Source of the DNA: Pseudodesulfovibrio profundus
Lineage (GTDB): Bacteria > Desulfobacterota > Desulfovibrionia > Desulfovibrionales > Desulfovibrionaceae
Direction of reading: 5' to 3'
Assembly: GCF_900217235.1 (NCBI RefSeq)
Contig: NZ_LT907975.1
Location: forward strand, 2,145,001-2,209,000
Length of the DNA: 64,000 nt
Shown here in pieces: positions 3,332 to 55,724 of this stretch (positions within the stretch are counted from its first letter, which is position 1; every line of letters starts with the position of its first letter). Below the pieces are notes generated by a model. That model saw nothing but the letters and a program-made list of their open reading frames with translations, ran no database searches and was not told where the DNA came from. Made by a program: the position numbers and the translations under genes.

Positions 3332-3521
3332 GATAAATCCTTGTAAAAGATAATAAAGATAGCTCCAACCAAGCGGGGGATAGTCTGATCGCCGCATGAC
3401 CGACGGCCAGACAGGTGCAAAGGGATAATCAATATCCCACAAATTGTCGACCCAGGCGTATTTTGGCAGAACTTTTGTGTAAAAAAGGATGTTTTTGAGG
3501 AATAAATGTTGAATTGGGCAC

Positions 3522-3549
3522 AAAAAAACCGCGGAAATGCGGTTTTTTT
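3522..3549 (-). terminator. Terminator after the universal stress protein gene
   Basis: AAAAAAACCGC, a six-base loop, then GCGGTTTTTTT. The hairpin is symmetrical and could work both ways, but it lies 60 bases past the minus-strand stop at 3609 and upstream of the antiporter leader. Confidence 0.85.
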
Positions 3550-3608
3550 GTTCTGGTATGCTATGCTGTTACGTGGTTGACGTAACGTTCATTCTGTTTT
3601 GCGTGGCA

Positions 3609-4493
3609 TTAACGACTGACCCACAGTGCGGTGTGCTCCAGTTGGCGCATGAGGTTTATTGCGACGGAACTGGGGAAGAGACCACGCATGTTGCTCCCTT
3701 CGTTCTCGCCGTGCTTACCGACACCCACCGCACAGTAGTTTCCTTCTAGCGCTTCCTTGATGATGGTTTTGACCACATTCCTGGAGGTCGCCATCTTCAA
3801 CTCAATGCGCTCCTCGTCCACATTGTGCTCATCGAGGATGGCCAGTCCTTCATCGAATATGCGTCCGGACCTGCCGGAAGAATACCCCTTCTGCGCCACG
3901 TGAAAGAGGGTGAATGTATGGCTTGGTTCGTTGGCAAGCATGTAGGCGGCATGGTCGATCATCCGCAGTGATGCCTTGGAACCGTCCATGCAGAGCAGAA
4001 CGTCCTGGCGTGGGTTTTCCGGGGGCCGCTTGCAGATCCATACCGGAAAATTAATATCACTCCAGAGCAGTTCATGGCTGACGGAGTTTTCGAAGAAGTG
4101 CTCAAACCATGAAAAGCCTTTTCTGCCGAGCAGCAGGGCGTCGTACATTCCCTTGTGTGCCTCGTTCACCATCTCGAGTACGGTGCCGCGTTGGGACTGG
4201 ACGGCCTTGATGCGAACATTGTCGCCGGAGCATCCCATGACGTCCTTGATCCACTTGGCTGCATCGTCGAGCGCGCGTTTGCCCTGAGTGTTGCGATGCT
4301 TTTGGAATTCATCAAAACCCTGTCCACGCGGGACAAACTGATCTTTGTCGATATCCCAGCTGGCCTTTTTGGGGGTCACATAAAAAAGGGTCAATTTGAG
4401 ATCACAGAAATCATTGAACACTTCCTTGAGGAAGCGCAAGTTGTATGAGGCGGCGCGGTCATCACTGATGGCAAGCAATAGTTCTTTCTGCAT
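3609..4493 (-). CDS. Universal stress protein with two UspA domains
   Basis: A 294-residue cytoplasmic protein made of two UspA folds (about residues 1-145 and 150-294). The N-terminal half opens with MQKELLLAISDDRAAS; the second starts RQDVLLCMDGSKAS and ends with a VGVGKHGENEG...GSVA-like nucleotide-binding loop in degenerate form (FPSSVA). Family members bind ATP or AMP and act in stress tolerance. Start supported by AAGGAG six bases upstream. The divergent gene at 4599 begins about 100 bases away, so the two promoters share that gap. Confidence 0.85.
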   Translation of the reverse strand: MQKELLLAISDDRAASYNLRFLKEVFNDFCDLKLTLFYVTPKKASWDIDKDQFVPRGQGFDEFQKHRNTQGKRALDDAAKWIKDVMGCSGDNVRIKAVQSQRGTVLEMVNEAHKGMYDALLLGRKGFSWFEHFFENSVSHELLWSDINFPVWICKRPPENPRQDVLLCMDGSKASLRMIDHAAYMLANEPSHTFTLFHVAQKGYSSGRSGRIFDEGLAILDEHNVDEERIELKMATSRNVVKTIIKEALEGNYCAVGVGKHGENEGSNMRGLFPSSVAINLMRQLEHTALWVSR

Positions 4494-4598
4494 GGATACT
4501 CCTTGGAATAGGCGAATGGTACGCCAAATCGTGGTCTGATGACAACTGTGCGGCACTGCTTGTTCTTTGGAACCGCTGCTGATACATAATCTTTGTAT

Positions 4599-5177
4599 AT
4601 GACTGATAACGAGCGAAAAAGCCACTTCCTGCGTCTGGTGCTGGGCGCCATGATCGCTGTCCTGCTATTGGCAGGCGGCGCGCATGCACGCACCCTGAGC
4701 CTGAAAGCGCCGGCTATCTCCAACAGCAATGGCAATATCGTGGCCCAGTTCGGCGTGAAAGTCATGGAGCTTCCCATTCTTAAAGGGGAACTGGAGGACG
4801 GCGTCGAGCTGGTCCTCAAGTGTTCCGTTGAGCTGGTCAAGGTCCGTCACTACTGGCTCGATTCCAATATCGGCTCCGACAATTTCGAGTCTTCCATCAA
4901 ATACGATCCATTGACCAAGGAATTTCTGATGGTGGTTCCGGGACGGTCACAGCCCATACACAACGCTGATCTTAAAGCATTGCTTGAAGAAGGGTGGGGA
5001 CGTATTCAGGCCCGTCTGGGTGCTTGGGAATCCCTGGAAAGGGGAACGGAGTACAGTCTGCGTCTTATCACCACAATGAACGAGGCGGACGCCCCTGACG
5101 GCTTCTACCGATTCGTCTACTTCTGGTCGTGGGATGCCGGTTCGGACAACACCTTTCATCTCAACTTCACTTTCTAG
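4599..5177 (+). CDS. DUF4390 family exported protein
   Basis: About 192 residues. A single hydrophobic N-terminal segment (residues 14-30, ending GGAHA) acts as signal or anchor; the rest is a beta-rich domain with ELEDGVELVLKCSVELVK and ending SDNTFHLNFTF, which matches the DUF4390 family. The gene sits nine bases before an NtrY-like kinase gene, a pairing common in this group, so it probably acts in the same envelope-sensing pathway. No good Shine-Dalgarno precedes the ATG at 4599; a TTG at 4593 is the alternative start. Confidence 0.75.
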   Translation: MTDNERKSHFLRLVLGAMIAVLLLAGGAHARTLSLKAPAISNSNGNIVAQFGVKVMELPILKGELEDGVELVLKCSVELVKVRHYWLDSNIGSDNFESSIKYDPLTKEFLMVVPGRSQPIHNADLKALLEEGWGRIQARLGAWESLERGTEYSLRLITTMNEADAPDGFYRFVYFWSWDAGSDNTFHLNFTF

Positions 5178-5185
5178 AGGCTCCC

Positions 5186-7378
5186 ATGGCGCCTGATCCC
5201 ATCCGAATTTCTTCCTCCACCCACGGGGAAAAGCGCAGAAGGAAATGGGAATATATCCTGGCCTTTGTCATGTTCCTGCTGCTTGGCGGACTGACCTGGG
5301 CTGAGCTCAAGTATCTCAGCGGCGACTACTATCTCATTTTGAACCTGCTGATTCTCAATGTCGTGCTGTTGCTGGGCATGCTCTTTTATGTGGCTCGTAA
5401 CGCCGTTCGCCTCGTGCTTGAGCGTCGCCGTCGCGTGCTCGGATCAAAGCTGCGTACTCGACTGGTCCTCGCCTTTATTTCCCTTTCTCTTATCCCCACA
5501 GTCCTCATTTATCTTGTTTCCGTGAAATTCGTGCAGACCTCGGTGGACTACTGGTTCAAAGGACAGGTTGAGGAATCCATGGAGCAGGCGCTGGAGCTGG
5601 GACGGGCCTTTTACGGTTCGGCACAGGATCGTCTGGAGCGGCGTGGAACGGTCATGCTCAATGAGATCGTCAAGTCCGAATACGCCTGGGGCGGCAAGGG
5701 GATGGACAATTATCTGAACAAGAAATTCGGAGAATATGATCTCAGTCTCGTCGGTGTCATCAACACCGAAGGCAAGGAACAGAACACCCACGCCTCCCCC
5801 CAGTGGAGCAAGGCGTGGCCCGAGATCAAGGACAAAATCGACTGGCAGTCGCTCAAGGCGGACCCCCGTCCGTGGACAACGATCATTCCCAAGCCCGGAA
5901 GTGATCTGGTGCTCGGCGTAACCCCTGTTGACGAGGGGAAAACCGGGTATCTCGTACTGGGGGAGACCGTGGGGCAGGGGCTGCTCCATCGTCTGGATCA
6001 GATCGTTCGCGGGCTGGATGAGTACAAGAAGCTCAAAGATCGCAAATATCCCTGGAAGATGAACCTTTATCTGACCCTCGGAGTGATGGCTCTGCTGATC
6101 ATCCTCGGGGCCATCTGGTTCGGCTTCCGACTCGCCAAGGAACTTTCTGCGCCGGTACAGGCCCTTGCCATGGGTACGGAACGCATCGGTCGGGGTGATC
6201 TTTCCGTTCGACTGGAGGATCGGTCCGACGATGAGCTCGGTTTTCTGGTGCAGTCCTTCAACCGCATGGCCGAGGACCTTGAGCAGTCGCAGGAATCCGT
6301 TCAGCAGGCCAATGAGCGCCTTGCCCAGCAGAATCAGGAGCTGGAGCGTCGCGGTCAGTACATTGAGGCCGTGCTCAACAATATTACTTCCGGCGTCATC
6401 TCCATGGATGGTGAGGGTCGAATAGGTACGGTCAATACGGCCGCCGAAGATATCCTTGGCGTGCCGGGGGCAATGATCATAGGCAAGAAGCCCTTTGAGC
6501 TGCTTTCCGGTGAGTTTTCCGTCATGATGGAAGACGCATTGGCGCAGGTTTCGGCCAATCCCGGTACCTTGTGGCAGCGACAACTGGATCTTCCCGTACG
6601 AAACAAGATCATCAAGGTGCTGATCAACGTCGTGTCGCTCCGGACCGTGGGAGGGCGTCAGGCCGGGCATGTGGCTGTGTTCGAGGATATTACCGAGCTG
6701 GAGAAAATCCAGCGACTGGCTGCGTGGCGGGAGGTCGCTCGACGCATCGCCCATGAGATCAAGAACCCGTTGACCCCCATCAAGTTGTCGGCCCAACGTC
6801 TGCAGCGCAAATATGGCGAGCAGGTAGGTGAGCCGGTTTTTGATGATTGTACCGAACTCATCGTCAAGCAGGTCGAGCGGTTGCAGAATATGGTTACGGA
6901 GTTTTCTGCCTACGCCAAGCTGCCCGAGGTGCAGCCCCGGCCCGATCTTCTGGCTCCGGTGCTGGAAGAGGTCGTCGGCATGTTTGAGAATACGTATCGC
7001 GATATCAACTGGCGACTTGTTTTTCATTCAACCATCGAGACATTTCCCTTTGACAGGGAAGCCATCCGCAAGGTGCTTATTAACCTGCTGACCAACGCGG
7101 CAGAGGCACTCAAGGGTGTCTATGATGCTCAGGTCGATATCACAGCCGTTCATGACACGGGGGCTGGCACGGTGACCATTGCCGTGGCTGATAACGGTGC
7201 AGGGCTCCCCAAGGATTCATCACGACTTTTCGAACCCTACTACACCGAAAAGAAGGGGGGTACCGGATTGGGATTGACCATTGTCCGATCCATTGTATCC
7301 GACCACCGGGGGCAGGTCAGGGTCGAGGCCAATGATCCGCGAGGAACAGTGTTCATCCTTGATTTGCCGGATGCCTGA
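5186..7378 (+). CDS. NtrY-like membrane sensor histidine kinase
   Basis: A 730-residue kinase. Order: two N-terminal helices (about residues 21-75), a third near 100, a periplasmic region, a helix near residue 300, a HAMP domain (APVQALAMGTERIGRGDLSVRL), a coiled coil, a PAS domain (ITSGVISMDGEGRIGTVN), a HisKA domain with His523 in IAHEIKNPLTP, and a HATPase with VLINLLTNAAEAL, DNGAGLP and GGTGLGLTIV. The NtrY layout and H-box are clear. It shares a transcription unit with the DUF4390 gene (start preceded by AGAGG). The usual NtrX regulator gene does not follow; a terminator comes nine bases after the stop. Confidence 0.9.
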   Translation: MAPDPIRISSSTHGEKRRRKWEYILAFVMFLLLGGLTWAELKYLSGDYYLILNLLILNVVLLLGMLFYVARNAVRLVLERRRRVLGSKLRTRLVLAFISLSLIPTVLIYLVSVKFVQTSVDYWFKGQVEESMEQALELGRAFYGSAQDRLERRGTVMLNEIVKSEYAWGGKGMDNYLNKKFGEYDLSLVGVINTEGKEQNTHASPQWSKAWPEIKDKIDWQSLKADPRPWTTIIPKPGSDLVLGVTPVDEGKTGYLVLGETVGQGLLHRLDQIVRGLDEYKKLKDRKYPWKMNLYLTLGVMALLIILGAIWFGFRLAKELSAPVQALAMGTERIGRGDLSVRLEDRSDDELGFLVQSFNRMAEDLEQSQESVQQANERLAQQNQELERRGQYIEAVLNNITSGVISMDGEGRIGTVNTAAEDILGVPGAMIIGKKPFELLSGEFSVMMEDALAQVSANPGTLWQRQLDLPVRNKIIKVLINVVSLRTVGGRQAGHVAVFEDITELEKIQRLAAWREVARRIAHEIKNPLTPIKLSAQRLQRKYGEQVGEPVFDDCTELIVKQVERLQNMVTEFSAYAKLPEVQPRPDLLAPVLEEVVGMFENTYRDINWRLVFHSTIETFPFDREAIRKVLINLLTNAAEALKGVYDAQVDITAVHDTGAGTVTIAVADNGAGLPKDSSRLFEPYYTEKKGGTGLGLTIVRSIVSDHRGQVRVEANDPRGTVFILDLPDA

Positions 7379-7386
7379 GCATGAAT

Positions 7387-7424
7387 GAAAAAAGCGGGCC
7401 GTCACATGACGGCCCGCTTTTTTT
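7387..7424. terminator. Bidirectional terminator between kinase and binding-protein genes
   Basis: Twelve-base perfect stem (GCGGGCCGTCAC-type at 7394-7417) flanked by A and T runs on both sides, serving the plus-strand kinase gene and the convergent minus-strand gene. Confidence 0.92.
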
Positions 7425-7455
7425 GCGAATAAGATGTATGGTGTCCTGACCAGCG

Positions 7456-8220
7456 CTAGAAGCGAAGCAGGTACTTTCTTGCAATGGTGTTGTACGACCC
7501 GTCTTTCCACATGCGGCTGATGGAAGTCTCCAACTGACGGAAGATCTGCTCTTTGTTCTCAAGGGCCGAGGAACGGGACATGACCAGGTAGGCGGGCTTC
7601 TTGGCGATGATCTTCTTGGGAAGATACACGATGGAACTGGTCATACCCATGTCCTTGAGGCGGTAATATGTCACATCGATGTTGCCTGCAAAGGCATCAA
7701 TCTCGCCCAGAACAAGGCCTTTAATGGCTGCTGCCTGATCCGGGTATTCCTTCACCTGGACAACCCCGGATTCCATTGCTGACTTGAATTCAGTGCCGAG
7801 ATCGGTCTGCTTCACCCTGCCGATGATACGGTCGGCCAGGTCGTCATAGGAGCGGAATGAAAACTTGTCGCCGACTTTGGTGAAAAGGACATAGTCGCTG
7901 AAGTGGATGGGGGCCTTTTTCATGAAGGTGAACTTCTTCTCCCGAGCCGGTGTCTGAAAGAAAGAGATGGCGCCATCGCACTCACCGTTCACAACCATGG
8001 CTTCCATTTCATCCCAGGGGCGAAAAATCACGTCGATGTTTATACCTGAATGCGCTGCGGCTTTTTTTATCACATCCACATCTATTCCTGCAGGAATTCC
8101 GTTTTGTTCCATTGAATAGGGGGCAAAGTCGCTATTGGCCACGATGAGCACATTCCTAGCCAGGGCCGGGGAGGTGCAAAGAATGGCTGTGAGAAGTGTC
8201 AGGATAAATACGATTCGCAT
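7456..8220 (-). CDS. Periplasmic solute-binding protein, family 3 type
   Basis: 254 residues with a signal peptide (MRIVFILTLLTAILCTSPALA) and an SBP_bac_3 fold: NSDFAPYSMEQNGIPAGIDVDVIKKAA near the start, then CDGAISFFQTPAREKKFTF, and the hinge-proximal YDDLADRIIGRVKQT. Such proteins bind amino acids or similar small molecules in the periplasm. No permease or ATPase gene is adjacent, so it either serves a remote transporter or feeds a sensor such as the neighbouring kinases. Start fixed by AAGGAG six bases upstream. Confidence 0.85.
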   Translation of the reverse strand: MRIVFILTLLTAILCTSPALARNVLIVANSDFAPYSMEQNGIPAGIDVDVIKKAAAHSGINIDVIFRPWDEMEAMVVNGECDGAISFFQTPAREKKFTFMKKAPIHFSDYVLFTKVGDKFSFRSYDDLADRIIGRVKQTDLGTEFKSAMESGVVQVKEYPDQAAAIKGLVLGEIDAFAGNIDVTYYRLKDMGMTSSIVYLPKKIIAKKPAYLVMSRSSALENKEQIFRQLETSISRMWKDGSYNTIARKYLLRF

Positions 8221-8387
8221 GAGATTCTCCTTAAATGGAATGTAATCAACGGATTATATATTGTTATTGCTTGGGAAACAAGCAAAGACCCGTATTAGCG
8301 TATTGTAATGATATAATATTACTAACGTGTTTTTTGATATATGCGTAAATGAACTGAATTGTAATAGCGGGAAAAGAGGTTCGGTCA

Positions 8388-11300
8388 TTGCGGCGCGTAT
8401 TGATTATAGATGACAACAAAGACTTTCGCTCTTTGGTAGCCACCGGGTTGGTAAAAAAGGGGTACGAGGTTTTACAGGCGGCGAACGGCTCTGCAGGGGT
8501 TGCCGTTTTCTGGACTGAAAAGCCGGATGTCGTCCTGGTCGACTTATGGATGCCGGAAATGGATGGGCATTCCGTTATTGCTGCTTTGAGTGAATTGTCA
8601 TGCGAAATCCCCGTCATTGTTTTATCCGGCAAAGGGGATGTTGATGACGTGGTTCGTTCCATGCGTTCCGGCGCCTGGGATTATGTCGTCAAAGGAAGTG
8701 ATGTGGTGTCCGAGGTCGGACAGGCTATTGAGCGATGCCTCAAGCGGTATGATGGGCAGAAAGAGCATCGGTGTTTTCTTGAAAAGGAAATCCGTGAACG
8801 CCAGGAAACCGAATCCGAACTGCAAACACAAGTTCTTTTTTTACAGACCATTATCGATGCCGTCCCCGACAGTATATTCTACAAGGACGAAAACGGTGTG
8901 TACCTGGGATGCAACAAGGCGTTCGAGGAATACATCGGTATCCCAAAGGAGCAGATCATCAACAAGCGGGTTGATAGTCTGGTTTCGTCCGAGGAACAGG
9001 AATATTACGAAGATAAGGATGCAACCCTCATGGACGAGGGAGGCGTGCAGGAATACGAGCGGACAACCCACTTCAACAACAGGGAACGCACCATACGCGT
9101 GCGAAAGGCACAGTACCATCATCCCAACGGGAAACGAGGACTGGTAGGCGTTGTTACGGATATCAGTGATTCCAGCCGTTTGGAAAAGGAATTACGAGCA
9201 AGCGAGGCCCGATTTCGCTCTCTGCTGGATTTTTCCCCTTTGCCTATCCTTATAGTTCGCATGGATGACGGCCTTTGTGTGTATGCGAACAAAAGCAGTG
9301 GCGAGCAGTTTGGTGTCGATAGCGAAAATATGATCGGGATGTCTGTTTCCAATTTTCATACGGAACAGGCTGTTCATCGAAATATTCCCCACAGAATCAA
9401 GGAGAAAGGGTTTCTTTCCAAACTTGAGGTCGAGTTGCTGCGTCTGGACGGAACCAGTTTCTGGGCACAGGTTTCGGCGGTGCTCTTTGAGTGGGATGGC
9501 AGGGAGGTCTGCCTGCTGACCGTCACTGATATCGACGAGAACAAGCAGTTGCTAGAGGCGCTCAGAAAATTCGAATTCATTGCCAACGCATCACACGAGA
9601 TAATGAGTCTGTGTAACAGGGACTGTGTGTATGAAGCGGTGAACACGGCGTATCTGGAACATCACGCCGTGAGCAAGGAACATATCCTGGGCCGAAGCAT
9701 GGCCGAAATCTGGGGCAAAAAGATATTTGAAAGGGAAATACACAAGCGTGTGCAACGGTGTTTCAAAGGAGAATCCGTCAACTACAAGTCCTGGTTTGCA
9801 TTTACCGGCAAGGAAGAGAGACACTACGATGTTTCCATGTACCCGTATATGAACAAGGATGGACGGGTTACTCATGTTGCAACCATCACGCGCGACATAA
9901 CCGATCAGACCATGGCCCATGCCAGGTTGCTGGAAAGTCGTGAACATTTTCGGGCTATTTTTGAAAGTTCCATCGATCCGATTCTGCTCTTGGACAGTCA
10001 ACTCCGACTCACAGACATGAACACGGCTGCCATTGCCAAGTTCGGGTTCAGCAAAGGGGCGATAGTTGGAAAGGAACTCCGTGCATTCCATGAGTCGGAT
10101 GTGTTTTACGAGCGGTTCAAGGATGTGGTTCTTCCAACGCTTCAGGGAGCCGGAGCATGGGTTGGAGAGTGGCGTTTCGTGGATTACATGGGCAAACGGA
10201 TAATCACGGACATGTCCATATCCACCATGCCAGATACGGCAGAGGGTGATTCGGGCGGGTATGTGGCCATGGTTCGCGATATCGGGCCACGCCTCAAGGC
10301 GGAAGCAGAGCGCCTTGATTCAGAACGGCGCTACAGGATTCTTTTCGAGGCTTCAGGTGCTGCCAGCCTTCTGGTGTACGGAAATGGCACGATCTCCAAG
10401 GCGAACCAGCGGTTCCTGGATTTGGTCGAGGCCAAGCGGGAAGAGGTCGAAGGAGCGGCGCACTGGTTGAGCTTCGTATCGAAAAAGGATCAGGAATATG
10501 CCCGTCTAAAATTTGAATCTTGTCTGGAAGCGCGGCCGGGTGTCGTTGTTTCATATGAGTTCGTCCTTGTGACCGGAGGCGGCAAGATTCGCCATGTTTA
10601 TGTTCAGGTCACCCGCCTTCCCGGTACGGATCAGGCCATTGTCTCGCTTGTGGATATTACCAAACAGAAGCGCGTGGAACATCGGCTTCGGAAAACCCTG
10701 AATGAAGTCAATGCGCTACAGGAAAACACGATTTTCGGGATCGGGCTGACGCAGAAAGAAGTAATCTCGCGTGTCAACAAGCGGGGTGCGGAAATGCTCG
10801 GCTATACTTCTGAAGCCATGTCGGGCATCAAACCGTCTTCCCTTTTCCGCTCTCAGAAGGAATACCTGAAACTCCGCAAGGAGTGTGAGCGCGATTTGCG
10901 ACAACGTGGAGGGTATGAAGGGGAGTGGCAATTGCAACGTGTTGATGGTTCACTGATCTGGGTGAGCCTGTTTGCAAAGACAATGAACAGGGCATTGCCT
11001 TTCAGTGAGGTCATCTGGACCCTGTCTGACATAACCGACCGTAAGTACAATGAAACTGTTGCCACTATGTTGTATCAGATCTCAACGGCAGTCAGTGTTA
11101 CTTCGGATTTGGATGAACTGTATCAGCGCATTCATGCCGTCCTTGGTGAGAACATGAATGCCACCAATTTCTTTGTTGGCTTGCTGGATGAAACCCGCCG
11201 TTACATGACGTTCACGTATTTCGAGGATGAAAAAGATAATAACAAGGGCGTGACCTTCGACACCAAGGATCCGAATGTCGCCAGCCTTTCCGTGGAGGTT

Positions 11301-21972: not shown

Positions 21973-22461
21973 ATGATGAAGAAATGTTTGTTGCTGCTTC
22001 TGTTCATCGCGCTTTCGGCAGGAAGCGCTCTGGCCGCTTCTCTTGGCGACCTCATGCCTGAGCGAGTTGGCGACATGCATCGCATTCAGTTGGTGACAGG
22101 TGATGCTGCCCAGGAGGAAGTGGATAAGCTGCACGGTAAATCGCTGCCAGCCGAAGAAAGCGTTGTGGCAAGATATGCGGTCCCGGGCGAGAAGATTCGG
22201 CCAGCCGAAGTGTGGGTTTCCCGGGTCTCATCCGAAAAGGAAGCACGCCGACAGACCGGGCAGATGGTGCATATGATGTACGAGAATCCGCGCTCCCCAT
22301 TCAAGAATCCCAGCCGGATGGACCATGGAACTACCGCCGTCTATCGCTTTGAAGGCATGGGTCAGGGGCATCTGATCTGGTTCAGCGGTGATCTGGTCTA
22401 CTGGATCAGTGTTGCACCGGAAGGCGAACAGCTTATGCTGGATACGTTTTGCAAGAAATAA
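21973..22461 (+). CDS. Hypothetical secreted protein
   Basis: 162 residues with a signal peptide (MMKKCLLLLLFIALSAGSALA) and a mature domain of ~140 residues beginning ASLGDLMPERVGDMHR. The mature part has WVSRVSSEKEARRQTGQMV and ends DLVYWISVAPEGEQLMLDTFCKK. No family recognised. Good AAGGA upstream; it follows the ChaN-like gene by 51 bases and ends the unit, with a terminator 77 bases on. Likely periplasmic. Confidence 0.75.
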   Translation: MMKKCLLLLLFIALSAGSALAASLGDLMPERVGDMHRIQLVTGDAAQEEVDKLHGKSLPAEESVVARYAVPGEKIRPAEVWVSRVSSEKEARRQTGQMVHMMYENPRSPFKNPSRMDHGTTAVYRFEGMGQGHLIWFSGDLVYWISVAPEGEQLMLDTFCKK

Positions 22462-22537
22462 CCTGCTGCTGGCTGAAAGCGTCAAACAACGATTAATTAC
22501 GGCTGTTTGACTTGTTTTCAAATCGTTACTCATCACT

Positions 22538-22580
22538 CCCCTGTCCTTCCCGTTGTTTGTCGGAAGGGCAGGGGCTTTTT
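22538..22580 (+). terminator. Terminator after the secreted-protein gene
   Basis: Thirteen-base stem with one G-T pair (CCCCTGTCCTTCC with GGAAGGGCAGGGG), an 11-base loop and a CTTTTT tail. Confidence 0.85.
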
Positions 22581-22670
22581 CGGCTGTGTTGACCATTTGC
22601 CACCAGAGTATTCGCCATTAAACCGCAAACAGTGTACATGCAGGGGGAAATCCAAGCATGGAGGGGTTAT

Positions 22671-23207
22671 ATGTTGCGTACTCAATTGTTGGTTGTCCTG
22701 CTGCTCTGTTTAGTCGTGACATCGGCCAGTGCTGGTGAGCCAGCGTTCATATCCGAGGTACGGGGCGGTGTGTACTCTCATGATATCGATTTCTGGAGCT
22801 TCAAAAGGGAACAGGGAGTGGATGTGAATGGTGAGATTCTGTTCGTTTCGCCAGAGGTCCTGTCCGTCCTTTTTGCTCCGCGCCCGCACGTAGGGGCGAC
22901 GTTGAATACCGCGGGTGACACCTCACATGTGTATGCTGGGCTAACCTGGGAATACGATATGACCCCTGACTTTTTCGTGGACTTGAACCTCGGTGGTTCT
23001 GCTCATAACGGGAAACTGGATACGGATGACAATGACCGGAAATCGTTCGGCTCTTCACTGCTCTTCCGTGTAGGGGGTGCCGTAGGGTATCGCCTGACAT
23101 CAAACTGGAATATTTCTCTTCAATACGAACACATGTCCAATGCGTATATCGCTGATCCCAATGAAGGGATGGATAACCTAGGTGTCCGTTTAGGTTACTG
23201 TTTTTGA
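22671..23207 (+). CDS. PagL-like lipid A deacylase (acyloxyacyl hydrolase family)
   Basis: 178 residues: a signal peptide ending TSASAG and an outer-membrane beta-barrel of eight predicted strands, ending in an aromatic residue (VRLGYCF). Near the C terminus is EHMSNAYIADPNEGMDNLGV, matching the PagL catalytic pattern H-x-S...E. PagL removes the 3-O acyl chain of lipid A in the outer membrane. The start with GGAGG upstream is preferred over an ATG 13 codons earlier. After the stop lies a long inverted repeat (TGTTTAC...GTAAACA, 23209-23238) that is not followed by T residues. Confidence 0.82.
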   Translation: MLRTQLLVVLLLCLVVTSASAGEPAFISEVRGGVYSHDIDFWSFKREQGVDVNGEILFVSPEVLSVLFAPRPHVGATLNTAGDTSHVYAGLTWEYDMTPDFFVDLNLGGSAHNGKLDTDDNDRKSFGSSLLFRVGGAVGYRLTSNWNISLQYEHMSNAYIADPNEGMDNLGVRLGYCF

Positions 23208-23342
23208 TTGTTTACGATATGATTACAATATGTAAACAGCCCGAAATCCTTTATCTCAATTCGACTCTGCCAGCTATGCGGAACCGTCTGCCGGTTGTTA
23301 CTGAATCCTTTTCAGACCCCGCCTTTTCGGGTACCACATGAC

Positions 23343-24158
23343 ATGCCTGAATTGCCTGAAGTCGAAGTAATTGCCCGTGGACTGCACTCTACACTGTCCG
23401 GTCGGATGGTGGATATGATCGTCCATGCTGATTTGACCCGCCTGAGCGATCCAGCGGATACCCTTCTTCCCGCCTTGCCAGGCAAAACCATTCAGCGTGT
23501 GTATCGACGTGCCAAGATACTCCTTATGGAGATGGCTGATGGGCATACATTGGCCTTCCATCTGAAAATGACCGGTCGGGTGGTGCATGGCGCCATGCGT
23601 TCTCCAGAGAAGCACGATCGGTTGATGATGTCGCTGGATGACGGGTCGCTCCTGTCGTTTTCCGACATGCGTCGATTTGGCTATGTGCGTCTTTTCGGGC
23701 CTGGCCAACTGAAGGAATGGGATTTTCTGAAAAAGGCTGGACCTGAACCGTTGGAGACCAGCCCGGAGATCCTTGCGAAACGAGTCGCAGACCGTAAAGG
23801 GCGGATCAAGGCGTTACTGCTCGATCAGCAGATTGTTAGCGGTGTGGGCAATATTTACGCGGATGAGTCACTCTTCCGGGCTGGTATTCATCCGGCCACC
23901 CGTGCCTGCGATGTGGATTATGACTTGCTGGTGGAGTTGTTCAGCCAATTGCAGAAGGTGCTTCAACAGGCTATTGCAGAAAACGGCAGTTCCATACGGA
24001 ATTATGTCAACGCAGATGGTGATGCCGGTGCATTTCAAAACAGTTTTTTTGTGTATGGCAGAAAAGGTGAGTTGTGCCGCCGGTGCGACTCGTGCCTGAA
24101 TGTTGCCAAGGTGGCTGGGCGAACTTCGACATTCTGCCCAAAATGCCAACCTATATGA
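23343..24158 (+). CDS. mutM: Formamidopyrimidine-DNA glycosylase
   Basis: 271 residues starting MPELPEVEVIARGL, where Pro2 and Glu3 form the catalytic N terminus after removal of Met. Other hallmarks: AFHLKMTGRVV, LSFSDMRRFGYV, a helix-two-turn-helix region (DQQIVSGVGNIYADESLF), NYVNADGDAGAFQ, and a C-terminal zinc finger with Cys pairs CRRCDSC and CPKC. It excises 8-oxoguanine and cleaves the strand in base-excision repair. The 16 codons upstream in frame lack coding character and the conserved N terminus fixes the start. Full length for the family. Confidence 0.97.
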   Translation: MPELPEVEVIARGLHSTLSGRMVDMIVHADLTRLSDPADTLLPALPGKTIQRVYRRAKILLMEMADGHTLAFHLKMTGRVVHGAMRSPEKHDRLMMSLDDGSLLSFSDMRRFGYVRLFGPGQLKEWDFLKKAGPEPLETSPEILAKRVADRKGRIKALLLDQQIVSGVGNIYADESLFRAGIHPATRACDVDYDLLVELFSQLQKVLQQAIAENGSSIRNYVNADGDAGAFQNSFFVYGRKGELCRRCDSCLNVAKVAGRTSTFCPKCQPI

Positions 24159-25796: not shown

Positions 25797-25802
25797 TTGG
25801 AG

Positions 25803-26546
25803 ATGGTCGATGCTGAAACCGTGCTGGCTCGACGAGAGTATTTTCCACGGGGCATGAACCAGCCGGAGGGGGGATATCGTTTTTCTCTCGATTCATTGCT
25901 TCTGTCCTGCTTTGCCTCTCCTGGGCGTAGAAAAGTCGGGATTGATCTCGGGTGCGGGTGTGGCGTCGTTGGTATAGGGATGCTTCTTCGTCAGCCGGGA
26001 TTGACGATCACCGGTGTCGAAATCGACACCACGTCATGTGATTCTGCAAAGAGCAATGTCGAGCACTTAATGCTTACCGATAGCTTGACGATTCAGCAGG
26101 GAGATGTGGCAACCTGGCGCCCTGATGCGGTGGTGGATTTCGTGGTTTCCAACCCGCCCTATCGTGAGTTGGATCGGGGGAGGGCAAGCCGTGGCGAGGG
26201 ACGAAAGACTGCCCGATTCGAACACCGTGGGAGCCTTCAATCGTTTGTCCGGTGTGCGGCAGTGGCCCTCAAAACCCGCGGCAAATTTGCCTTTGTTCAT
26301 CTGCCAGAACGACTTTCGGAGATCATGACGACGCTCCATGACAACAAGTTGGAGCCCAAGCGGATGCGGTTGGTGTATGGTCGATTGGATGCGCCACCCA
26401 AGATCGTACTGATGGAAGCGATTAAGGCAGGGTCGCCCGGACTTCGGGTTGAGCCACCATTGGTATTACACGAGCGAAGGGGCGGAGAGACTCGCTTTAC
26501 CGAGGACGCACTGAATTATTGTGAATATTTGAGGTGTAACGCGTGA
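25803..26546 (+). CDS. TrmN6/YfiC-like adenine N6 methyltransferase
   Basis: 247 residues with a class I SAM-binding fold: GIDLGCGCGVVGIGMLL, then VEIDTTSCDSAKSNV, and the catalytic SNPPY motif of N6-adenine methyltransferases. YGYRFSLDS-like GGYRFSLDSLLL at the N terminus is typical for TrmN6, which modifies A37 of tRNA-Val. The C-terminal half (GKFAFVHLPERLSEI) matches. The tRNA target is inferred. A TTG at 25797 is an alternative start. The stop overlaps the start of the next gene (TGATG). Confidence 0.85.
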   Translation: MVDAETVLARREYFPRGMNQPEGGYRFSLDSLLLSCFASPGRRKVGIDLGCGCGVVGIGMLLRQPGLTITGVEIDTTSCDSAKSNVEHLMLTDSLTIQQGDVATWRPDAVVDFVVSNPPYRELDRGRASRGEGRKTARFEHRGSLQSFVRCAAVALKTRGKFAFVHLPERLSEIMTTLHDNKLEPKRMRLVYGRLDAPPKIVLMEAIKAGSPGLRVEPPLVLHERRGGETRFTEDALNYCEYLRCNA

Positions 26547-27116: not shown

Positions 27117-28463
27117 ATGATAACGAAGATCATCCTGCAGGATTTCATGGCGCACGAGTACACCGAGCTGGAGCTTGGTCCCGGGGTCAACGCCCTCACC
27201 GGACCAAACAACACCGGCAAATCCGCCATTGTGGAAGCCCTTCGCTGTATAGCCACCAATCCGGTGCCAAAGCATTTCATTCGGCATGGAGCCAAAGAAG
27301 CGCGTGTGACATTGGAGATGGATGATGGCGTTCGCGTTGTCTGGATTCGTAATAAACGCTCACCCGGATATGAAATTTGGCAACCCGGAGCCGATGAGCC
27401 GCAGGAGTACTGGAAGTTCGGCCGCAAACCTCCCGAAGACGTGCTTGCTGCCCTGCGACTGAATCTGGTTGAACTGGAAGGAAACAAGGATCCCATTGAT
27501 GTCCATGTGGGCAATCAGCGTGATCCGGTTTTTCTGCTCAATAGCCCCGGTTCTGACGCAGCCGCTTTTTTTGCGGCATCCACTGAATCAGCGCACCTGT
27601 TAGCCATGCAAAATCTCTTGAAGCGCAGGACGCAGGATGCCAAGCGTGAAGAGCGGGATCATTCCAATCGGCTACATGAAGTGGAAACGGCTTTGGATGC
27701 GTTTGAATTGTTACCGGATATCTCCATGGCCGTGGAGCAGGCGCGGGAAACAGAGGCGGCCTTGCATACTCTCCAGCAGCAAATCCCAACGCTTGAGCGA
27801 ACGGTTAATGAACAGGAAGCGGTTCGTCGCACTCTCGATGTCCAGTCTCAACGGGTCGAGGTCCTAAATGCGGTGCAGTCAGCGCCTGAATTGCAGGATG
27901 TGAAAAGCCTTCATGTACTCCTCGCACAATTGAAGCAGGTGACAGACGATCACAGGCGAACTGCATCAGCCAATCAGGTTTTACAGGGTCTGGCTCAACC
28001 TTCGGATATTCATGATACCAAACGTCTTGCGTCGTTTTGTGAGCAACTCCTTGGAGTAGAACGACAACTGGTACGAATGGGAGAACAGGCGTCAACGATA
28101 TCAGGCCTTTCCGCTCCTCCCGCGCTTCACGATACGCGTCATCTATCCAGTCTCATAGACGACATGATCGCATCCCGAACCAGATGGAACAGAGGGGATC
28201 GGCGGATGCAAGTCATGGATACGCTGCTACAGCCTCCGGTCGTTCAACCGCCCCGTGAATTGGAGGTGCTACTTGCTGAGATGCAGACCCTGGCGGTGAA
28301 CAAAAACAAGTATGATGCAGCGTTGCAGGACTTGGAGAAGCAGTTGGAGTCGTTGCAGTCCACCATTACGGAACGGGTTGAGGCCATAGGCCAGTGTCCC
28401 ACATGCGGTGGTGACATGAACGCCGGAGATTTCCTTGATCGGGGGTGTGGTCATGGGTGTTGA
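27117..28463 (+). CDS. N-terminal half of an SbcC/Rad50-like ATPase
   Basis: 448 residues beginning MITKIILQDFMAHEYTEL, the N-terminal fold of SbcC/Rad50, with Walker A GPNNTGKS at 29-36. A coiled coil runs from about 165 to 425 and includes four repeats of ~38-39 residues, each starting with a proline-rich turn (near 256, 294, 333, 372) and continuing LHD-x2-x-L-x2-L. The chain ends just after a zinc-hook-like CPTC (427-430), with a second pair at 444 and 448. The other ATPase half (signature, Walker B) is missing and lies in the fourth gene of this operon. It would need that partner to hydrolyse ATP. The start lacks a Shine-Dalgarno. Confidence 0.85.
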   Translation: MITKIILQDFMAHEYTELELGPGVNALTGPNNTGKSAIVEALRCIATNPVPKHFIRHGAKEARVTLEMDDGVRVVWIRNKRSPGYEIWQPGADEPQEYWKFGRKPPEDVLAALRLNLVELEGNKDPIDVHVGNQRDPVFLLNSPGSDAAAFFAASTESAHLLAMQNLLKRRTQDAKREERDHSNRLHEVETALDAFELLPDISMAVEQARETEAALHTLQQQIPTLERTVNEQEAVRRTLDVQSQRVEVLNAVQSAPELQDVKSLHVLLAQLKQVTDDHRRTASANQVLQGLAQPSDIHDTKRLASFCEQLLGVERQLVRMGEQASTISGLSAPPALHDTRHLSSLIDDMIASRTRWNRGDRRMQVMDTLLQPPVVQPPRELEVLLAEMQTLAVNKNKYDAALQDLEKQLESLQSTITERVEAIGQCPTCGGDMNAGDFLDRGCGHGC

Positions 28464-29412
28464 TATCGTAAAAGGTAAAGGGTTGTTTTTCATCGGCGAC
28501 CCCCATCTGGCAGACACTCCGCCGGGACAGCGGCTCGATGGTTATCTTGATCAGATCATGAGCAAGCTGGAGGCGTGCCTTGAGCATGCCCATGCGTTGG
28601 ATATGCCTGTGGTTTTCCTTGGAGATGTCTTTCACTGGCCCAGAGACAACTCCAACAAGATGCTTGTGGAGTTGATCCGCATTTTTGGTGAGCATCCGGG
28701 TAAAAACAACATCTGGATTCTGGTGGGCAACCACGACAAGTACCAGTCCCGTTTCACCAGTGATGTCAGTCTGGCTGTTTTGGAGGCGGCTGGCGTTGTT
28801 CGGTTGATGAAAGAATATGGTCCCCAGTTCGTTCTGGATACCGGGGATACACAAACGCTCGTCTGCGGCAGCCCGGATGGAACACCATTACCCAAATCGT
28901 ATGAACAGGAAGAAGATACGCCGGATACCGTGATCTGGGTGGCGCATCACAATATCCGCTTCCCCGAATTTATCGACCGTGCCTACTCCATCAAGGAGCT
29001 GCCCGGTATCGACTGGCTCGTTAACGGACATATTCATCGGCCACAGCCGACCATACGCAAGGGCCAGACCACTTGGGCCAACCCGGGCAATATTACCCGT
29101 CTGACATTCACGGAACTGTCCAAGGTGCGAAAGCCTGCAGCGGCTATTTGGACCCCGGGGGCAGAAGAATTGGAAAAGTGGGTCATTCCTCATGAGCCGT
29201 TTGATGTGGTGTTTCCCGATCAGGCGTTCCCGGTGCAGGAAGAAAGCAGTGTCAGTGAGTCGGATTATGTGAAAGGGCTTGAGCGGTTGGCCTGGCAACG
29301 TACCCAGGAAGGCATGGGTCTGAAACAGTTTTTGGTAGACAATGTGCAGCGCGAGACTCGCGAAGGTGCACTTATATGGGAACTCTACGAGGAGGTCATA
29401 GATAATGAATAA
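28453..29412 (+). CDS. SbcD/Mre11-like metallophosphoesterase
   Basis: 319 residues with all calcineurin-type nuclease motifs in order: IGDPHLAD (Asp16, His18), FLGDVFHW, VGNHDKY, WVAHHN, and NGHIHRPQ. The C-terminal ~70 residues are helical (YVKGLERLAWQRTQEG) where Mre11 and SbcD carry the Rad50-binding region. It should be a Mn-dependent DNA nuclease working with the split ATPase. The gene overlaps the N-half gene by 11 bases and the next gene by 8, so the four proteins are made from one transcript. A TTG 18 bases upstream, with GGAG before it, is an alternative start. Confidence 0.85.
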   Translation: MGVDIVKGKGLFFIGDPHLADTPPGQRLDGYLDQIMSKLEACLEHAHALDMPVVFLGDVFHWPRDNSNKMLVELIRIFGEHPGKNNIWILVGNHDKYQSRFTSDVSLAVLEAAGVVRLMKEYGPQFVLDTGDTQTLVCGSPDGTPLPKSYEQEEDTPDTVIWVAHHNIRFPEFIDRAYSIKELPGIDWLVNGHIHRPQPTIRKGQTTWANPGNITRLTFTELSKVRKPAAAIWTPGAEELEKWVIPHEPFDVVFPDQAFPVQEESSVSESDYVKGLERLAWQRTQEGMGLKQFLVDNVQRETREGALIWELYEEVIDNE

Positions 29413-29728
29413 TACTCAGAATGGTTTTGGTAATAATCAGGATGTGCAGTTGGAACAGGAGCTTGCCAATCTTCGAAACCAATATGAACAGTTGCGCGAC
29501 CAGAAAGTCCGGACCGAGCAGCAGGTCGCTGACCTCTCCAGCCGACTGGATGCTCTCAAAGAGCAGGCACAGGCCGAGTACGGAACCAGTGATCCGGCGG
29601 AGTTGCAGGCATTGTTGCAGAAAAAGCGTCAGGAAAACGAGCAGGTCGTGGCCGAGTATTCCCAGCACGTTCGGAAAATTCAGGCGGATCTGGCTGCGGT
29701 TGAAAACCGTGTGGATGGAGATCAGTAG
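29405..29728 (+). CDS. Small coiled-coil protein of the split SbcCD-like operon
   Basis: 107 residues, almost entirely heptad-patterned (LEQELANLRNQYEQLRDQKV, then DLSSRLDALKEQ and LLQKKRQENEQVVAEYSQ). A short non-helical tip lies near EYGTSDPAEL. No catalytic motif or cysteine. Preceded by GGAGG; overlaps both neighbours. It lies where the returning coiled-coil arm of SbcC would be encoded, so it may pair with the N-half coil. That role is inferred from position only. Confidence 0.8.
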   Translation: MNNTQNGFGNNQDVQLEQELANLRNQYEQLRDQKVRTEQQVADLSSRLDALKEQAQAEYGTSDPAELQALLQKKRQENEQVVAEYSQHVRKIQADLAAVENRVDGDQ

Positions 29729-30378
29729 TGGAATCCCCGACTCTCCCAGATCTTCGGGCGGTCGAACGGCGCCTTGATCGGTTGTCCGCATTGGCAGAAG
29801 GGCTGCACAATGAGCATGAGCGTGTCCGGGGTCACTTGGATTCGGCGAGGGATTTCCTTGTTTTAGCCCCCAGTGCGCGTGACCGCCTGGAAGAACTCTC
29901 AAAGGCGTTGTTCGGGAAGATACTGGATGAAGTCGAGTTGAATCTGACCCATGCCATTCGAGAAATCCTTGGACAGGACCGCGTGGTCGTCACTGAGCGG
30001 GAGATCAAAAACAACCGGCTACAGATCGAGTTCAGGATTCAGAACCGCGGCAATGAGGATGAGATCGAAGATATCATGACGGGGCAGGGTGGTTCCGTAT
30101 GTAATATCCTCTCTGTCGGACTTCGGCTCATTGCTTTGTCCCAGTTGCCCGAGCATCAACATCGCCCATTTCTGGTGCTTGATGAGCAGGATTGCTGGCT
30201 CAAACCGGCGCTAATTCCCAAATTCATGCAGTTGATCAACGAGATAGCGAACAAGCTGTCGTTGCAATTGCTAGTCATCAGCCACCACCCCCTCGATCTC
30301 TTTGCCGAAGCTGCGGATCGGATTTTCGAACTGCGTCCGGATAAGGTGCACGGGGCTTCGGTGACACGCGTCAAATGA
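29728..30378 (+). CDS. C-terminal half of an SbcC/Rad50-like ATPase
   Basis: 216 residues from a GTG with GGAG upstream; the start overlaps the previous stop (TAGTG). A short coiled coil (10-75) leads into the C-terminal ATPase lobe: signature-like GQGGSVCNILSVGLR (119-133), Walker B FLVLDEQD (148-155) and the H-switch ISHHP (184-188). There is no Walker A, which is supplied by the N-half 1.3 kb upstream. Together the two would form one complete SMC-type nucleotide site. Full-length SbcC has both lobes in one ~1000-residue chain, so the split and the short arm are unusual. Confidence 0.85.
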   Translation: MESPTLPDLRAVERRLDRLSALAEGLHNEHERVRGHLDSARDFLVLAPSARDRLEELSKALFGKILDEVELNLTHAIREILGQDRVVVTEREIKNNRLQIEFRIQNRGNEDEIEDIMTGQGGSVCNILSVGLRLIALSQLPEHQHRPFLVLDEQDCWLKPALIPKFMQLINEIANKLSLQLLVISHHPLDLFAEAADRIFELRPDKVHGASVTRVK

Positions 30379-42660: not shown

Positions 42661-43928
42661 GAGACCTCTGCACGGCAAATCCCACACTTTTACTCTTTAA
42701 CTATTTGATTTATTATGCTATTATTTCTCCATCCAAAGGAGGAAGGCATGGCTATTCGGCAGAAAGGACCTCGGTTGGGTGATTACTTCCTGGGGCACCG
42801 CAGAACCAAGACCACATTTCTGGATGAGATCAACGAACTCATCGACTGGCAGCCCATCAACGCCTTTCTGTGCAAGAAGATCAGGCGCAAGGCCAACGCC
42901 GTGGGCAATCCCGCCTATCCGCCTCTGGCGATGTTCAAGATTCTGCTCTTGCAGCGTTGGTACAACCTGAGTGATCCGGGCGTGGAGCAGGCGCTGCTCG
43001 ACCGGCTCTCCTTTGTCAGATTTACCGGTTTTTCCATCGAGGACGACGTGCCGGACGAGACCACCATATGCCGTTTCCGTAACGGTTTGATCCGCCTGAA
43101 GGTGCTGGACTCCTTGCTCGACATGCTTAACCGCCAGCTTGAAGGACAAGGGCTTCTTGTCCGTGAGGGAGCCGTGGTGGACGCCTCGGTAGTCGAGTCG
43201 CAGCGGCGGCCGCGCAAGGTTATCGACGTGATGCCTGAGGACCGTTCCGAGGACGCCGAAGAACAGGATGGGCCGGTGGACTGCCGGGTCAGCTATTCGG
43301 ATGACGAGGAGGCGGCCTGGCTCCGCAAGAGAAATCGGGCCTATTACGGCTACAAGCTCCATGCCGCGACGGACAGTCGAGACGGGTTTCTGCTCTGTGG
43401 TCACATCACTCCCGCGAACCATTCGGACACGGGCGAATTCGAGCGGCTCGTGAATGGCGTCGGCCTTGATCCCGGCGCACGGGTTTATGCGGACAAGGGC
43501 TATTGCAGCGGGAAGAACCGGGACATTCTGTTTGATCGCGATTTGGAGGACGGAACCATGGACAAGACGCCTCGTGGCGGCAGGCTGACAGACTTCGAAA
43601 AGACCCGCAACCGTGACATCAGCAGCATTCGGCAAATAGTCGAGCGGGCCTTCGGCACACTCAAACGTGGCTACGCATTCTTTCGGTCCCGATACGTGGG
43701 TCGTGAGAAGGTGGAGGGAGAGTTCCACATCCTCGCCATGGCGTTCAATTTGAAAAAAGCTGTTCGACTGGCGCGAGCCTGAAGGGAGAGGTGCGTCCAA
43801 AATCCGGCATTTCGGCCAGAAATGGCAGGAAAAGGCCGGGAATGAGCCCAAGCTGGGGTGCGGTCAGAACATCAAATTGGGTGCGGAGCGCAAGGCACGG
43901 ACGCGAAAAGGGGATGCGCAGAGGTCTC
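42661..43928 (+). mobile_element. IS5-family element, copy 1, 1268 bp
   Basis: Ends GAGACCTCTGC / GCAGAGGTCTC. It is flanked by a GATAT direct repeat (42656-42660 and 43929-43933). It has the same length, ends and transposase translation as the element at 54457-55724, which lies in the opposite orientation 10.5 kb away. After the transposase gene there are 146 bases with no gene before the right end. Confidence 0.92.
42748..43782 (+). CDS. IS5-family transposase (copy 1)
   Basis: 344 residues from the ATG preceded by GGAGGAAGG; the frame is open 11 codons further. DDE catalytic residues are visible: Asp in AVVDASVVES, Asp in VYADKGYCSG and Glu in IVERAFGTLKRGYAFFRSRY, with YYGYKLHAATDSRDGF between them. 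Frame intact and identical to the copy at 54603-55637. Probably active. Confidence 0.94.
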   Translation: MAIRQKGPRLGDYFLGHRRTKTTFLDEINELIDWQPINAFLCKKIRRKANAVGNPAYPPLAMFKILLLQRWYNLSDPGVEQALLDRLSFVRFTGFSIEDDVPDETTICRFRNGLIRLKVLDSLLDMLNRQLEGQGLLVREGAVVDASVVESQRRPRKVIDVMPEDRSEDAEEQDGPVDCRVSYSDDEEAAWLRKRNRAYYGYKLHAATDSRDGFLLCGHITPANHSDTGEFERLVNGVGLDPGARVYADKGYCSGKNRDILFDRDLEDGTMDKTPRGGRLTDFEKTRNRDISSIRQIVERAFGTLKRGYAFFRSRYVGREKVEGEFHILAMAFNLKKAVRLARA

Positions 43929-54456: not shown

Positions 54457-55724
54457 GAGACCTCTGCGCATCCCCTTTTCGCGTCCGTGCCTTGCGCTCC
54501 GCACCCAATTTGATGTTCTGACCGCACCCCAGCTTGGGCTCATTCCCGGCCTTTTCCTGCCATTTCTGGCCGAAATGCCGGATTTTGGACGCACCTCTCC
54601 CTTCAGGCTCGCGCCAGTCGAACAGCTTTTTTCAAATTGAACGCCATGGCGAGGATGTGGAACTCTCCCTCCACCTTCTCACGACCCACGTATCGGGACC
54701 GAAAGAATGCGTAGCCACGTTTGAGTGTGCCGAAGGCCCGCTCGACTATTTGCCGAATGCTGCTGATGTCACGGTTGCGGGTCTTTTCGAAGTCTGTCAG
54801 CCTGCCGCCACGAGGCGTCTTGTCCATGGTTCCGTCCTCCAAATCGCGATCAAACAGAATGTCCCGGTTCTTCCCGCTGCAATAGCCCTTGTCCGCATAA
54901 ACCCGTGCGCCGGGATCAAGGCCGACGCCATTCACGAGCCGCTCGAATTCGCCCGTGTCCGAATGGTTCGCGGGAGTGATGTGACCACAGAGCAGAAACC
55001 CGTCTCGACTGTCCGTCGCGGCATGGAGCTTGTAGCCGTAATAGGCCCGATTTCTCTTGCGGAGCCAGGCCGCCTCCTCGTCATCCGAATAGCTGACCCG
55101 GCAGTCCACCGGCCCATCCTGTTCTTCGGCGTCCTCGGAACGGTCCTCAGGCATCACGTCGATAACCTTGCGCGGCCGCCGCTGCGACTCGACTACCGAG
55201 GCGTCCACCACGGCTCCCTCACGGACAAGAAGCCCTTGTCCTTCAAGCTGGCGGTTAAGCATGTCGAGCAAGGAGTCCAGCACCTTCAGGCGGATCAAAC
55301 CGTTACGGAAACGGCATATGGTGGTCTCGTCCGGCACGTCGTCCTCGATGGAAAAACCGGTAAATCTGACAAAGGAGAGCCGGTCGAGCAGCGCCTGCTC
55401 CACGCCCGGATCACTCAGGTTGTACCAACGCTGCAAGAGCAGAATCTTGAACATCGCCAGAGGCGGATAGGCGGGATTGCCCACGGCGTTGGCCTTGCGC
55501 CTGATCTTCTTGCACAGAAAGGCGTTGATGGGCTGCCAGTCGATGAGTTCGTTGATCTCATCCAGAAATGTGGTCTTGGTTCTGCGGTGCCCCAGGAAGT
55601 AATCACCCAACCGAGGTCCTTTCTGCCGAATAGCCATGCCTTCCTCCTTTGGATGGAGAAATAATAGCATAATAAATCAAATAGTTAAAGAGTAAAAGTG
55701 TGGGATTTGCCGTGCAGAGGTCTC
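54457..55724 (-). mobile_element. IS5-family element, copy 2, 1268 bp
   Basis: Same length and ends (GAGACCTCTGC / GCAGAGGTCTC) as the copy at 42661-43928 but inverted. It is flanked by an exact TAGTGT repeat (54451-54456 and 55725-55730), one base longer than the GATAT repeat around copy 1. As each copy keeps its own matching repeats, there has been no inversion between them since they inserted. Confidence 0.92.
54603..55637 (-). CDS. IS5-family transposase (copy 2)
   Basis: 344 residues from the ATG after GGAGGAAGG on the minus strand. The translation is identical to copy 1, including the DDE residues in VVDASVV, ADKGY and VERAFG. An intact frame and perfect identity suggest recent transposition. 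Confidence 0.94.
   Translation of the reverse strand: MAIRQKGPRLGDYFLGHRRTKTTFLDEINELIDWQPINAFLCKKIRRKANAVGNPAYPPLAMFKILLLQRWYNLSDPGVEQALLDRLSFVRFTGFSIEDDVPDETTICRFRNGLIRLKVLDSLLDMLNRQLEGQGLLVREGAVVDASVVESQRRPRKVIDVMPEDRSEDAEEQDGPVDCRVSYSDDEEAAWLRKRNRAYYGYKLHAATDSRDGFLLCGHITPANHSDTGEFERLVNGVGLDPGARVYADKGYCSGKNRDILFDRDLEDGTMDKTPRGGRLTDFEKTRNRDISSIRQIVERAFGTLKRGYAFFRSRYVGREKVEGEFHILAMAFNLKKAVRLARA

Follow-up and report, generated by a model that had tools for sequence, protein, structure and literature searches.

Introduction

SbcC and Rad50 carry both lobes of their ATPase head in one chain with the N lobe first, whereas the family described here encodes the two lobes in separate genes or, when they are fused, places the C lobe before the N lobe. 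The example considered lies in a stretch of 64,000 nucleotides of Pseudodesulfovibrio profundus (contig NZ_LT907975.1, positions 2,145,001 to 2,209,000; hereafter the window), in which four overlapping + strand genes at 27117-30378 form one operon. With a probability of roughly 0.78, this operon encodes a divergent Mre11-Rad50 (SbcCD-type) complex that builds its ATPase from separate chains and processes DNA ends. Among described relatives, one-chain Mre11/Rad50 fusions are present on plasmids and viruses, and two cases, from Anaerostipes and Bacillus phage 0305phi8-36, lack one P-loop segment (Yoshida et al. 2011, PMC3175470); these two may mark the edge of the split family. No description of a naturally split Rad50 was found in the literature. 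It is disputed whether the hook of Rad50 remains shut or opens during its work, according to the available text of PMC6969161.

Results

Two complementary ATPase lobes and a nuclease

A preliminary description, made from the letters of the window, held that the first and last genes of the operon encode two halves of one Rad50-like ATPase that joins an Mre11-like nuclease, and this is supported by natural fusions of the C lobe to the N lobe, the fold of gene 2, the profile match of gene 1 and the conservation of the set. The fusions are good evidence that genes 1 and 4 form one head, since in them the C lobe and the N lobe occur in a single chain. The overlapping arrangement of the four genes was likewise borne out, with overlaps of 11, 8 and 1 bases when gene 2 is started at 28453, within the 1-11 bases first given.

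Gene 1 possesses a Walker A motif, GPNNTGKS, and no hhhhDE motif, confirming that it has the first of these elements and lacks a Walker B. Its product matches Pfam AAA_23 with 48 bits (cut-off 27) and Rad50/SbcC with 99.3% in hhalign; its best NCBIfam match is an Archaea-specific SMC-related model (58.8 bits against a cut-off of 300), and its best PHROG is a phage 'exonuclease' of 491 positions. None of the NCBIfam SbcC, Rad50 and SbcD models reaches its cut-off with the operon proteins, the Rad50 models giving at most 51.5 bits against cut-offs of at least 700. A protein search returned 274 gene 1 homologues among the candidates scored, 706 for gene 4 and 752 for gene 2, with 120 listed for each, and many of the named homologues listed for these three genes come from Pseudodesulfovibrio or other Desulfovibrionaceae.

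Gene 2 possesses the five calcineurin motifs previously assigned to it (DPH, GDVF, GNHD, HH and GHIH), and in an alignment of 34 rows the columns of the metal motifs show no or almost no variation. The open reading frame (ORF) list starts the gene at a TTG at 28435, but most of the listed homologues fit the ATG at 28453 instead. The protein matches Pfam Metallophos with 38 bits (cut-off 21.5) and scores 12.6 bits with the SbcD model TIGR00619, below the cut-off of 77.65. Structure comparison assigns it an Mre11/SbcD-type fold, Mre11 being aligned over residues 13-268, and toward the C terminus, where SbcD/Mre11 has a helix-loop-helix that binds Rad50, the model has putative helices at 277-287, 294-303 and 309-322, with mixed confidence in this part. 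On a phylogenetic tree the nucleases of split systems separate from SbcD (support 82), and the Desulfovibrionaceae gene 2 rows and two lone copies fall in one starred set (99).

Gene 4 carries the motifs that gene 1 lacks: a Walker B motif, FLVLDE(QD), and an SHH His switch are present and a Walker A motif is absent, as first described, but the signature is GQGGS and not LSGG(E/Q). GQGGS is invariant among 18 gene 4 rows. By script, a Walker B motif was found in 118 of 119 gene 4 homologues and a His switch in 115 of 119; among the 118 with a script-picked Walker B, of which a few sites may be mis-picked, 115 have a signature of the form xxGG[AGS], and one of these 115 has GSGGS. Gene 4 passes no Pfam, NCBIfam or PHROG cut-off and has no SbcC_Walker_B match; its best PHROG is a phage 'ATPase' of 211 positions. 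In the record of Microbacterium phage Magritte, gene 2 (L222 284-934), annotated as an exonuclease, resembles gene 4 of the window (tblastn 27-29%), and gene 228 of the same record is annotated as MRE11.

Gene 3, described at first as a pure coiled coil, is indeed coil-like. The further proposal that it may serve as the returning arm is a plausible one from the place of the gene, the comparisons with SbcC weighed below giving no significant match.

A repeat arm that stops at a zinc motif

An element missed in the earlier reading lies at the end of gene 1. A CPTC motif at residues 427-430 is followed by 18 residues, rich in Cys and His, and then by the end of the chain; judged by its sequence, the gene 1 chain thus stops at a hook-like zinc motif, and this terminus aligns with the Rad50 chain 6zff. 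In five sets of homologues, the first two of which overlap in taxa, a [HC]x(1-3)[HC] pair follows the CxxC in 96/119, 11/18, 49/54, 20/27 and 7/15 tails, so that most members possess it in four of the five sets. Across these sets each tail holds 1.6-2.9 Cys or His residues, against 0.3-0.8 expected from composition.

The arm that leads to this terminus is periodic, with a repeat of 39 residues in Desulfovibrionaceae (60 arms, z 54), 47 in phages (27 arms, z 33) and 40 in the fused group (50 arms, z 18). Seven arms of the split family gave a z of 14.5, versus at most 6.4 for seven canonical SbcC arms. In SbcC/Rad50 a single chain supplies both strands of the antiparallel coiled-coil arm, and the CxxC zinc hook sits at its apex. 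Arm length changes by whole repeats: the 119 arms measured among the 120 listed homologues cluster at 208-211 (n=6), 240 (n=1) and 246-252 residues (n=112), and three loci have arms of 286-291.

Conservation in Desulfovibrionaceae

Gene 4 is present in 55 of 149 Desulfovibrionaceae genomes, representing 18 of 44 genera, and gene 2 in 57 of the 149; in a sample of the phylum, gene 4 was matched in 14 of 297 genomes, three of them Desulfovibrionaceae. A check of gene order in other members of the family, proposed in the preliminary description, found the order 1-2-3-4 in 18 of 20 stretches, some with a gap before gene 4, which indicates that the four-gene arrangement is not due to chance. In the other two genomes genes 1, 2 and 3 are on a different contig from gene 4, and in one of them gene 1 is incomplete, being cut off where a contig ends. 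In a further genome (L237) genes 3 and 4 are about 5.5 kb apart and on opposite strands. Because gene 4 is encoded apart from genes 1-3 in some genomes, the fixed stoichiometry once read from the gene overlaps is weakened.

Two genomes of genus g10 have a gene 2 homologue (L235 2843-3748 and L236 3687-4484) with genes 1, 3 and 4 absent from the stretch; in L235 an ORF resembling a methyltransferase, named by eye, overlaps this homologue. Two genes upstream of gene 1 in the window, a methyltransferase (25797-26546; Pfam MTS) is encoded, and a homologue of it is present in 11 of the 20 Desulfovibrionaceae stretches.

Relation to canonical SbcCD

SbcD exceeds its cut-off in 30 of the 149 genomes, and these coincide with the 55 that possess the split set in one genome only, that of P. 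profundus itself. The canonical sbcC of P. profundus is interrupted: its N part (901 amino acids) and its C part, which has SbcC_Walker_B, flank an opposite-strand ORF that encodes an integrase core. As this sole double holder has an interrupted sbcC, no genome of the 149 possesses both sets intact, and the split complex appears to stand in for SbcCD in part of the Desulfovibrionaceae. The P. profundus SbcD lies very close on the tree to that of G040, a genome of another genus, which suggests that the canonical sbcD arrived recently. On the side of sbcD away from the interrupted sbcC lies an ORF for a DDE transposase, and the ORF at L169 8666-9796 is antisense to this transposase. Two ORFs of the window (42721-43851 and 54534-55664) have the same first 70 residues as the ORF at L169 8666-9796, and the three are probably copies of one insertion sequence.

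Split and fused forms on plasmids, phages and other genomes

All four parts were found in 111 of the 123 loci gathered, a set that includes the near-duplicates L016/L170, L009/L130 and probably L136/L138; several of the 12 incomplete loci are contig ends or have parts on other contigs, and the rest have weak or undetected parts. The holders are Desulfovibrionaceae, a few metagenome-assembled genomes (MAGs), alphaproteobacterial chromosomes, megaplasmids and phages. Microcystis phage Mvi-JY20 carries the genes in the order 1-2-3-4. Plasmids of Aneurinibacillus, Paenibacillus and Geobacillus encode a fusion of the nuclease to the N lobe followed by genes 3 and 4, and gene 4 was not found on a Jeotgalibacillus plasmid with the same nuclease-N lobe layout. 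Megaplasmids of Variovorax, Bosea, Vibrio, Alteromonas, Aeromonas and Pseudomonas encode, in this order, gene 3, the C lobe fused ahead of the N lobe, and a separate nuclease gene, and in Alphaproteobacteria the C lobe likewise stands first in the fusion. A scan of a genome collection gave at least 61 loci, most of them with the C-N fusion (Microvirga, Methylobacterium); among the matches listed, three MAG contigs have the split form. One viral scan (IMG/VR) gave 27 loci, with genes 1, 4 and 2 in all 27 and gene 3 in 26; four other viral scans gave no loci.

The nuclease is not maintained in every holder. Gene 2 homologues of the Vibrio and Alteromonas megaplasmids lack the catalytic motifs, that of the Pseudomonas megaplasmid lacks some of them, and that of the Aeromonas megaplasmid is a very weak match (L012 7266-8138, L013 7056-7832, L219 7187-8095 and L218 7329-8102), while the ATPase halves are kept in all four. 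Because the Vibrio and Alteromonas nucleases have lost their motifs, a use without nuclease may exist on some megaplasmids.

Several individual loci deserve description. In Bacillus phage vB_BboS-125 an Mre11-like gene (L016 9250-10230; about 22426-23400 of the record) lies unannotated in a gap between listed genes. On Cetobacterium somerae plasmid p3 the gene 1 part (L220 5947-8009) appears to be spread over two overlapping ORFs, of which the latter has CPTCNKEF as its end; the nuclease is preceded by an IscB gene, with a predicted lincosamide resistance gene farther downstream. The set on L138, a contig labelled as a MAG of a Methanoregulaceae archaeon, scores nearly the same as that of a Fimbriimonadaceae MAG (L136), and the archaeal label is likely the result of mis-binning.

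Table 1. Features of the split operon (window positions) and of the interrupted canonical gene (locus positions).
Feature	Position	Strand	Remarks
Gene 1, N-terminal Rad50-like lobe, helical-repeat arm, terminal CxxC	27117..28463	+	448 aa
Walker A, GPNNTGKS	27201..27224	+	gene 1 residues 29-36
Gene 1 distal arm, ~39-residue repeats	27906..28394	+	boundaries approximate; period analysis
CPTC and Cys/His-rich C-terminal tail, putative hook-like zinc site at chain end	28395..28460	+	
Gene 2, Mre11/SbcD-type metallophosphoesterase	28453..29412	+	319 aa from ATG
Gene 3, short coil protein, core A..yGTsD..eL	29405..29728	+	107 aa
Gene 4, SMC/Rad50-type C-terminal ATPase lobe with leading coil	29728..30378	+	216 aa, GTG start
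Signature-motif equivalent, GQGGS	30082..30096	+	gene 4 residues 119-123
Walker B, FLVLDE	30169..30186	+	gene 4 residues 148-153
His switch, SHH	30280..30288	+	gene 4 residues 185-187
Interrupted canonical sbcC region	L169 (G000:C1:1169500-1180500), 2816-9802		

Discussion

Proposed mechanism and evidence that weighs against it

In the proposed complex, the Walker A lobe would come from gene 1, together with a long arm of helical repeats that terminates at a zinc site, and gene 4 would add the lobe with signature, Walker B and His switch on a short coil; their complementary motifs and natural fusions point to the assembly of one ABC head. Judging from its position and conservation, gene 3 is likely to pad or clasp the coil that lies between the stub of gene 4 and the arm of gene 1. 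A pair of these heads, closing on ATP, would regulate a gene 2 nuclease dimer, which, as a member of the Mre11/SbcD family, may cut DNA ends or hairpins. Opening of the arms would need no bond to be broken, because the chain is already open at its distal end. That a head can be built from fragments is indicated by Rad50 entry 1f2u, whose chains of 142-149 residues are presumably the N and C halves of Rad50. A model of the fused ATPase finds Rad50 first by fold in Foldseek, a ranking given for the model as a whole.

A number of observations weigh against this interpretation. By sequence, gene 4 is an SMC/ABC-type C lobe and not clearly a Rad50 one: its 20 PDB matches comprise SMC proteins and transporter ATPases but no Rad50, with a best E of 1.1e-5, and hhalign to SbcC gives 29.8%, at the right place, with a set of 12 rows and 1.1% with a set of Desulfovibrionaceae only. 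The serine of LSGG is missing from nearly all members. Gene 3 has no significant match to the SbcC arm (hhalign, best 17.8%), and its length has a correlation of -0.19 with that of the gene 1 arm (113 loci, ORF lengths from mechanical starts); since it does not follow arm length, a pairing of gene 3 with the whole arm is disfavoured. The structure models are of single chains, the predicted TM score (pTM) of the fused model is modest, and its VIA rows place Rad50 on the N lobe with unrelated coils mixed in. The near-exclusive distribution of the split set and SbcD has a Fisher p of 4e-6 that is not corrected for ancestry and a p of 0.031 by genus (18 and 10 of 44, one shared); 65 of the 149 genomes possess neither set, and in one genome that has the split set, G133, SbcD is matched below the cut-off, in part and with a stop.

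Alternative explanations

Decay or recent breakage of an sbcCD operon kept by chance would account for the fragmented ATPase, and the genome does contain an interrupted canonical sbcC; nevertheless, this is extremely improbable, given that the split extends over 18 genera of the family sample with motifs retained, that the same parts occur in other groups and in phages, and that the canonical SbcC is a separate gene, E. coli SbcC scoring 26 bits with the gene 1 profile. The split operon is not a broken SbcC, and the canonical sbcC is a different, interrupted gene elsewhere in the genome and not its parent. The suggestion in the preliminary description of a defence complex, here an anti-phage or anti-plasmid system of the SMC-like kind (Lamassu, Wadjet, OLD, MADS), draws on PADLOC matches of gene 1 to LmuB (up to 49.6 bits), of gene 4 in part to mad3 (33.4 bits) and of the upstream methyltransferase to part of mad2 (55.7 bits), as well as on the presence of the set on plasmids. 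However, viral contigs also carry the set, the PADLOC matches are partial, the mad2-like and mad3-like genes are not contiguous, and a methyltransferase homologue recurs in 11 of the 20 family stretches. Of the eight flanking ORFs scanned, the other seven have no PADLOC match, with no other mad match and no Lmu match (LmuA effector) among them, and a defence role is not supported and seems quite improbable.

It is also unlikely that genes 1, 3 and 4 form a structural SMC-like clamp, serving in tethering or loop formation, with the nuclease as an accessory. The SMC-like sequence of gene 4 would fit such a clamp, as would the megaplasmids on which the ATPase halves stay while the Vibrio and Alteromonas nucleases have lost the catalytic motifs and the Pseudomonas one some of them; against it, gene 2 keeps all five motifs in the window with near-invariant metal columns, and in the two genus g10 genomes the stretch contains a gene 2 homologue but none of the ATPase parts. 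A variant of the split Mre11-Rad50 interpretation has the terminal CxxC and Cys/His tail form a zinc knuckle within one chain, capping the arm without a hook dimer. Its prospects fall somewhat short of even: the Cys/His pair is frequent and above the expectation from composition, but it is not universal, most of the seven canonical SbcC also have a His after the hook, and the Rad50 chain match at the terminus is compatible with an ordinary hook.

Significance

Overall, the odds slightly favour a separate and widespread class of Mre11-Rad50-type complex, in which the ATPase is cut beside a self-contained zinc terminus and has an adjustable repeat arm, a dedicated third subunit and an altered signature, and which is carried by phages and megaplasmids and has replaced SbcCD in a large part of the Desulfovibrionaceae. 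Such a system may explain how part of this family manages without SbcCD and would give a function to phage and megaplasmid genes now listed as hypothetical, where the copies may serve recombination-dependent replication or repair. A natural Rad50-like chain that ends at the hook, with an arm varying by whole repeats, would also make the question of hook opening directly testable.

Comparison with known systems

Both gene 2 and the model of the fused ATPase are matched best in structure by archaeal and eukaryotic Mre11-Rad50, although identity in these matches is 12-22% and the split or permutation is natural here. The Archaea-specific SMC-related proteins share a zinc-hook motif and give gene 1 its best NCBIfam match, but have both lobes in one chain, and no nuclease partner is named in the available text (PMC9389158). 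Phage T4 gp46/gp47 is likewise a phage-encoded Rad50/Mre11 pair, in which gp46 has both ATPase segments in one chain, as given in the available text of PMC5105663. The fusions of PMC3175470 share a nuclease and Rad50-like parts on viruses and plasmids; they consist of one chain, and its available text reports no separate C-lobe or small coil gene. SbcCD shares the ABC head lobes, a helical arm with CxxC and an Mre11-type nuclease in one operon. The split system differs from it in having its ATPase in three chains, with an end at the CxxC, a non-LSGG signature, arm repeats of about 39 residues, an extra small subunit, and proteins that fall below the SbcC/Rad50 and SbcD family cut-offs.

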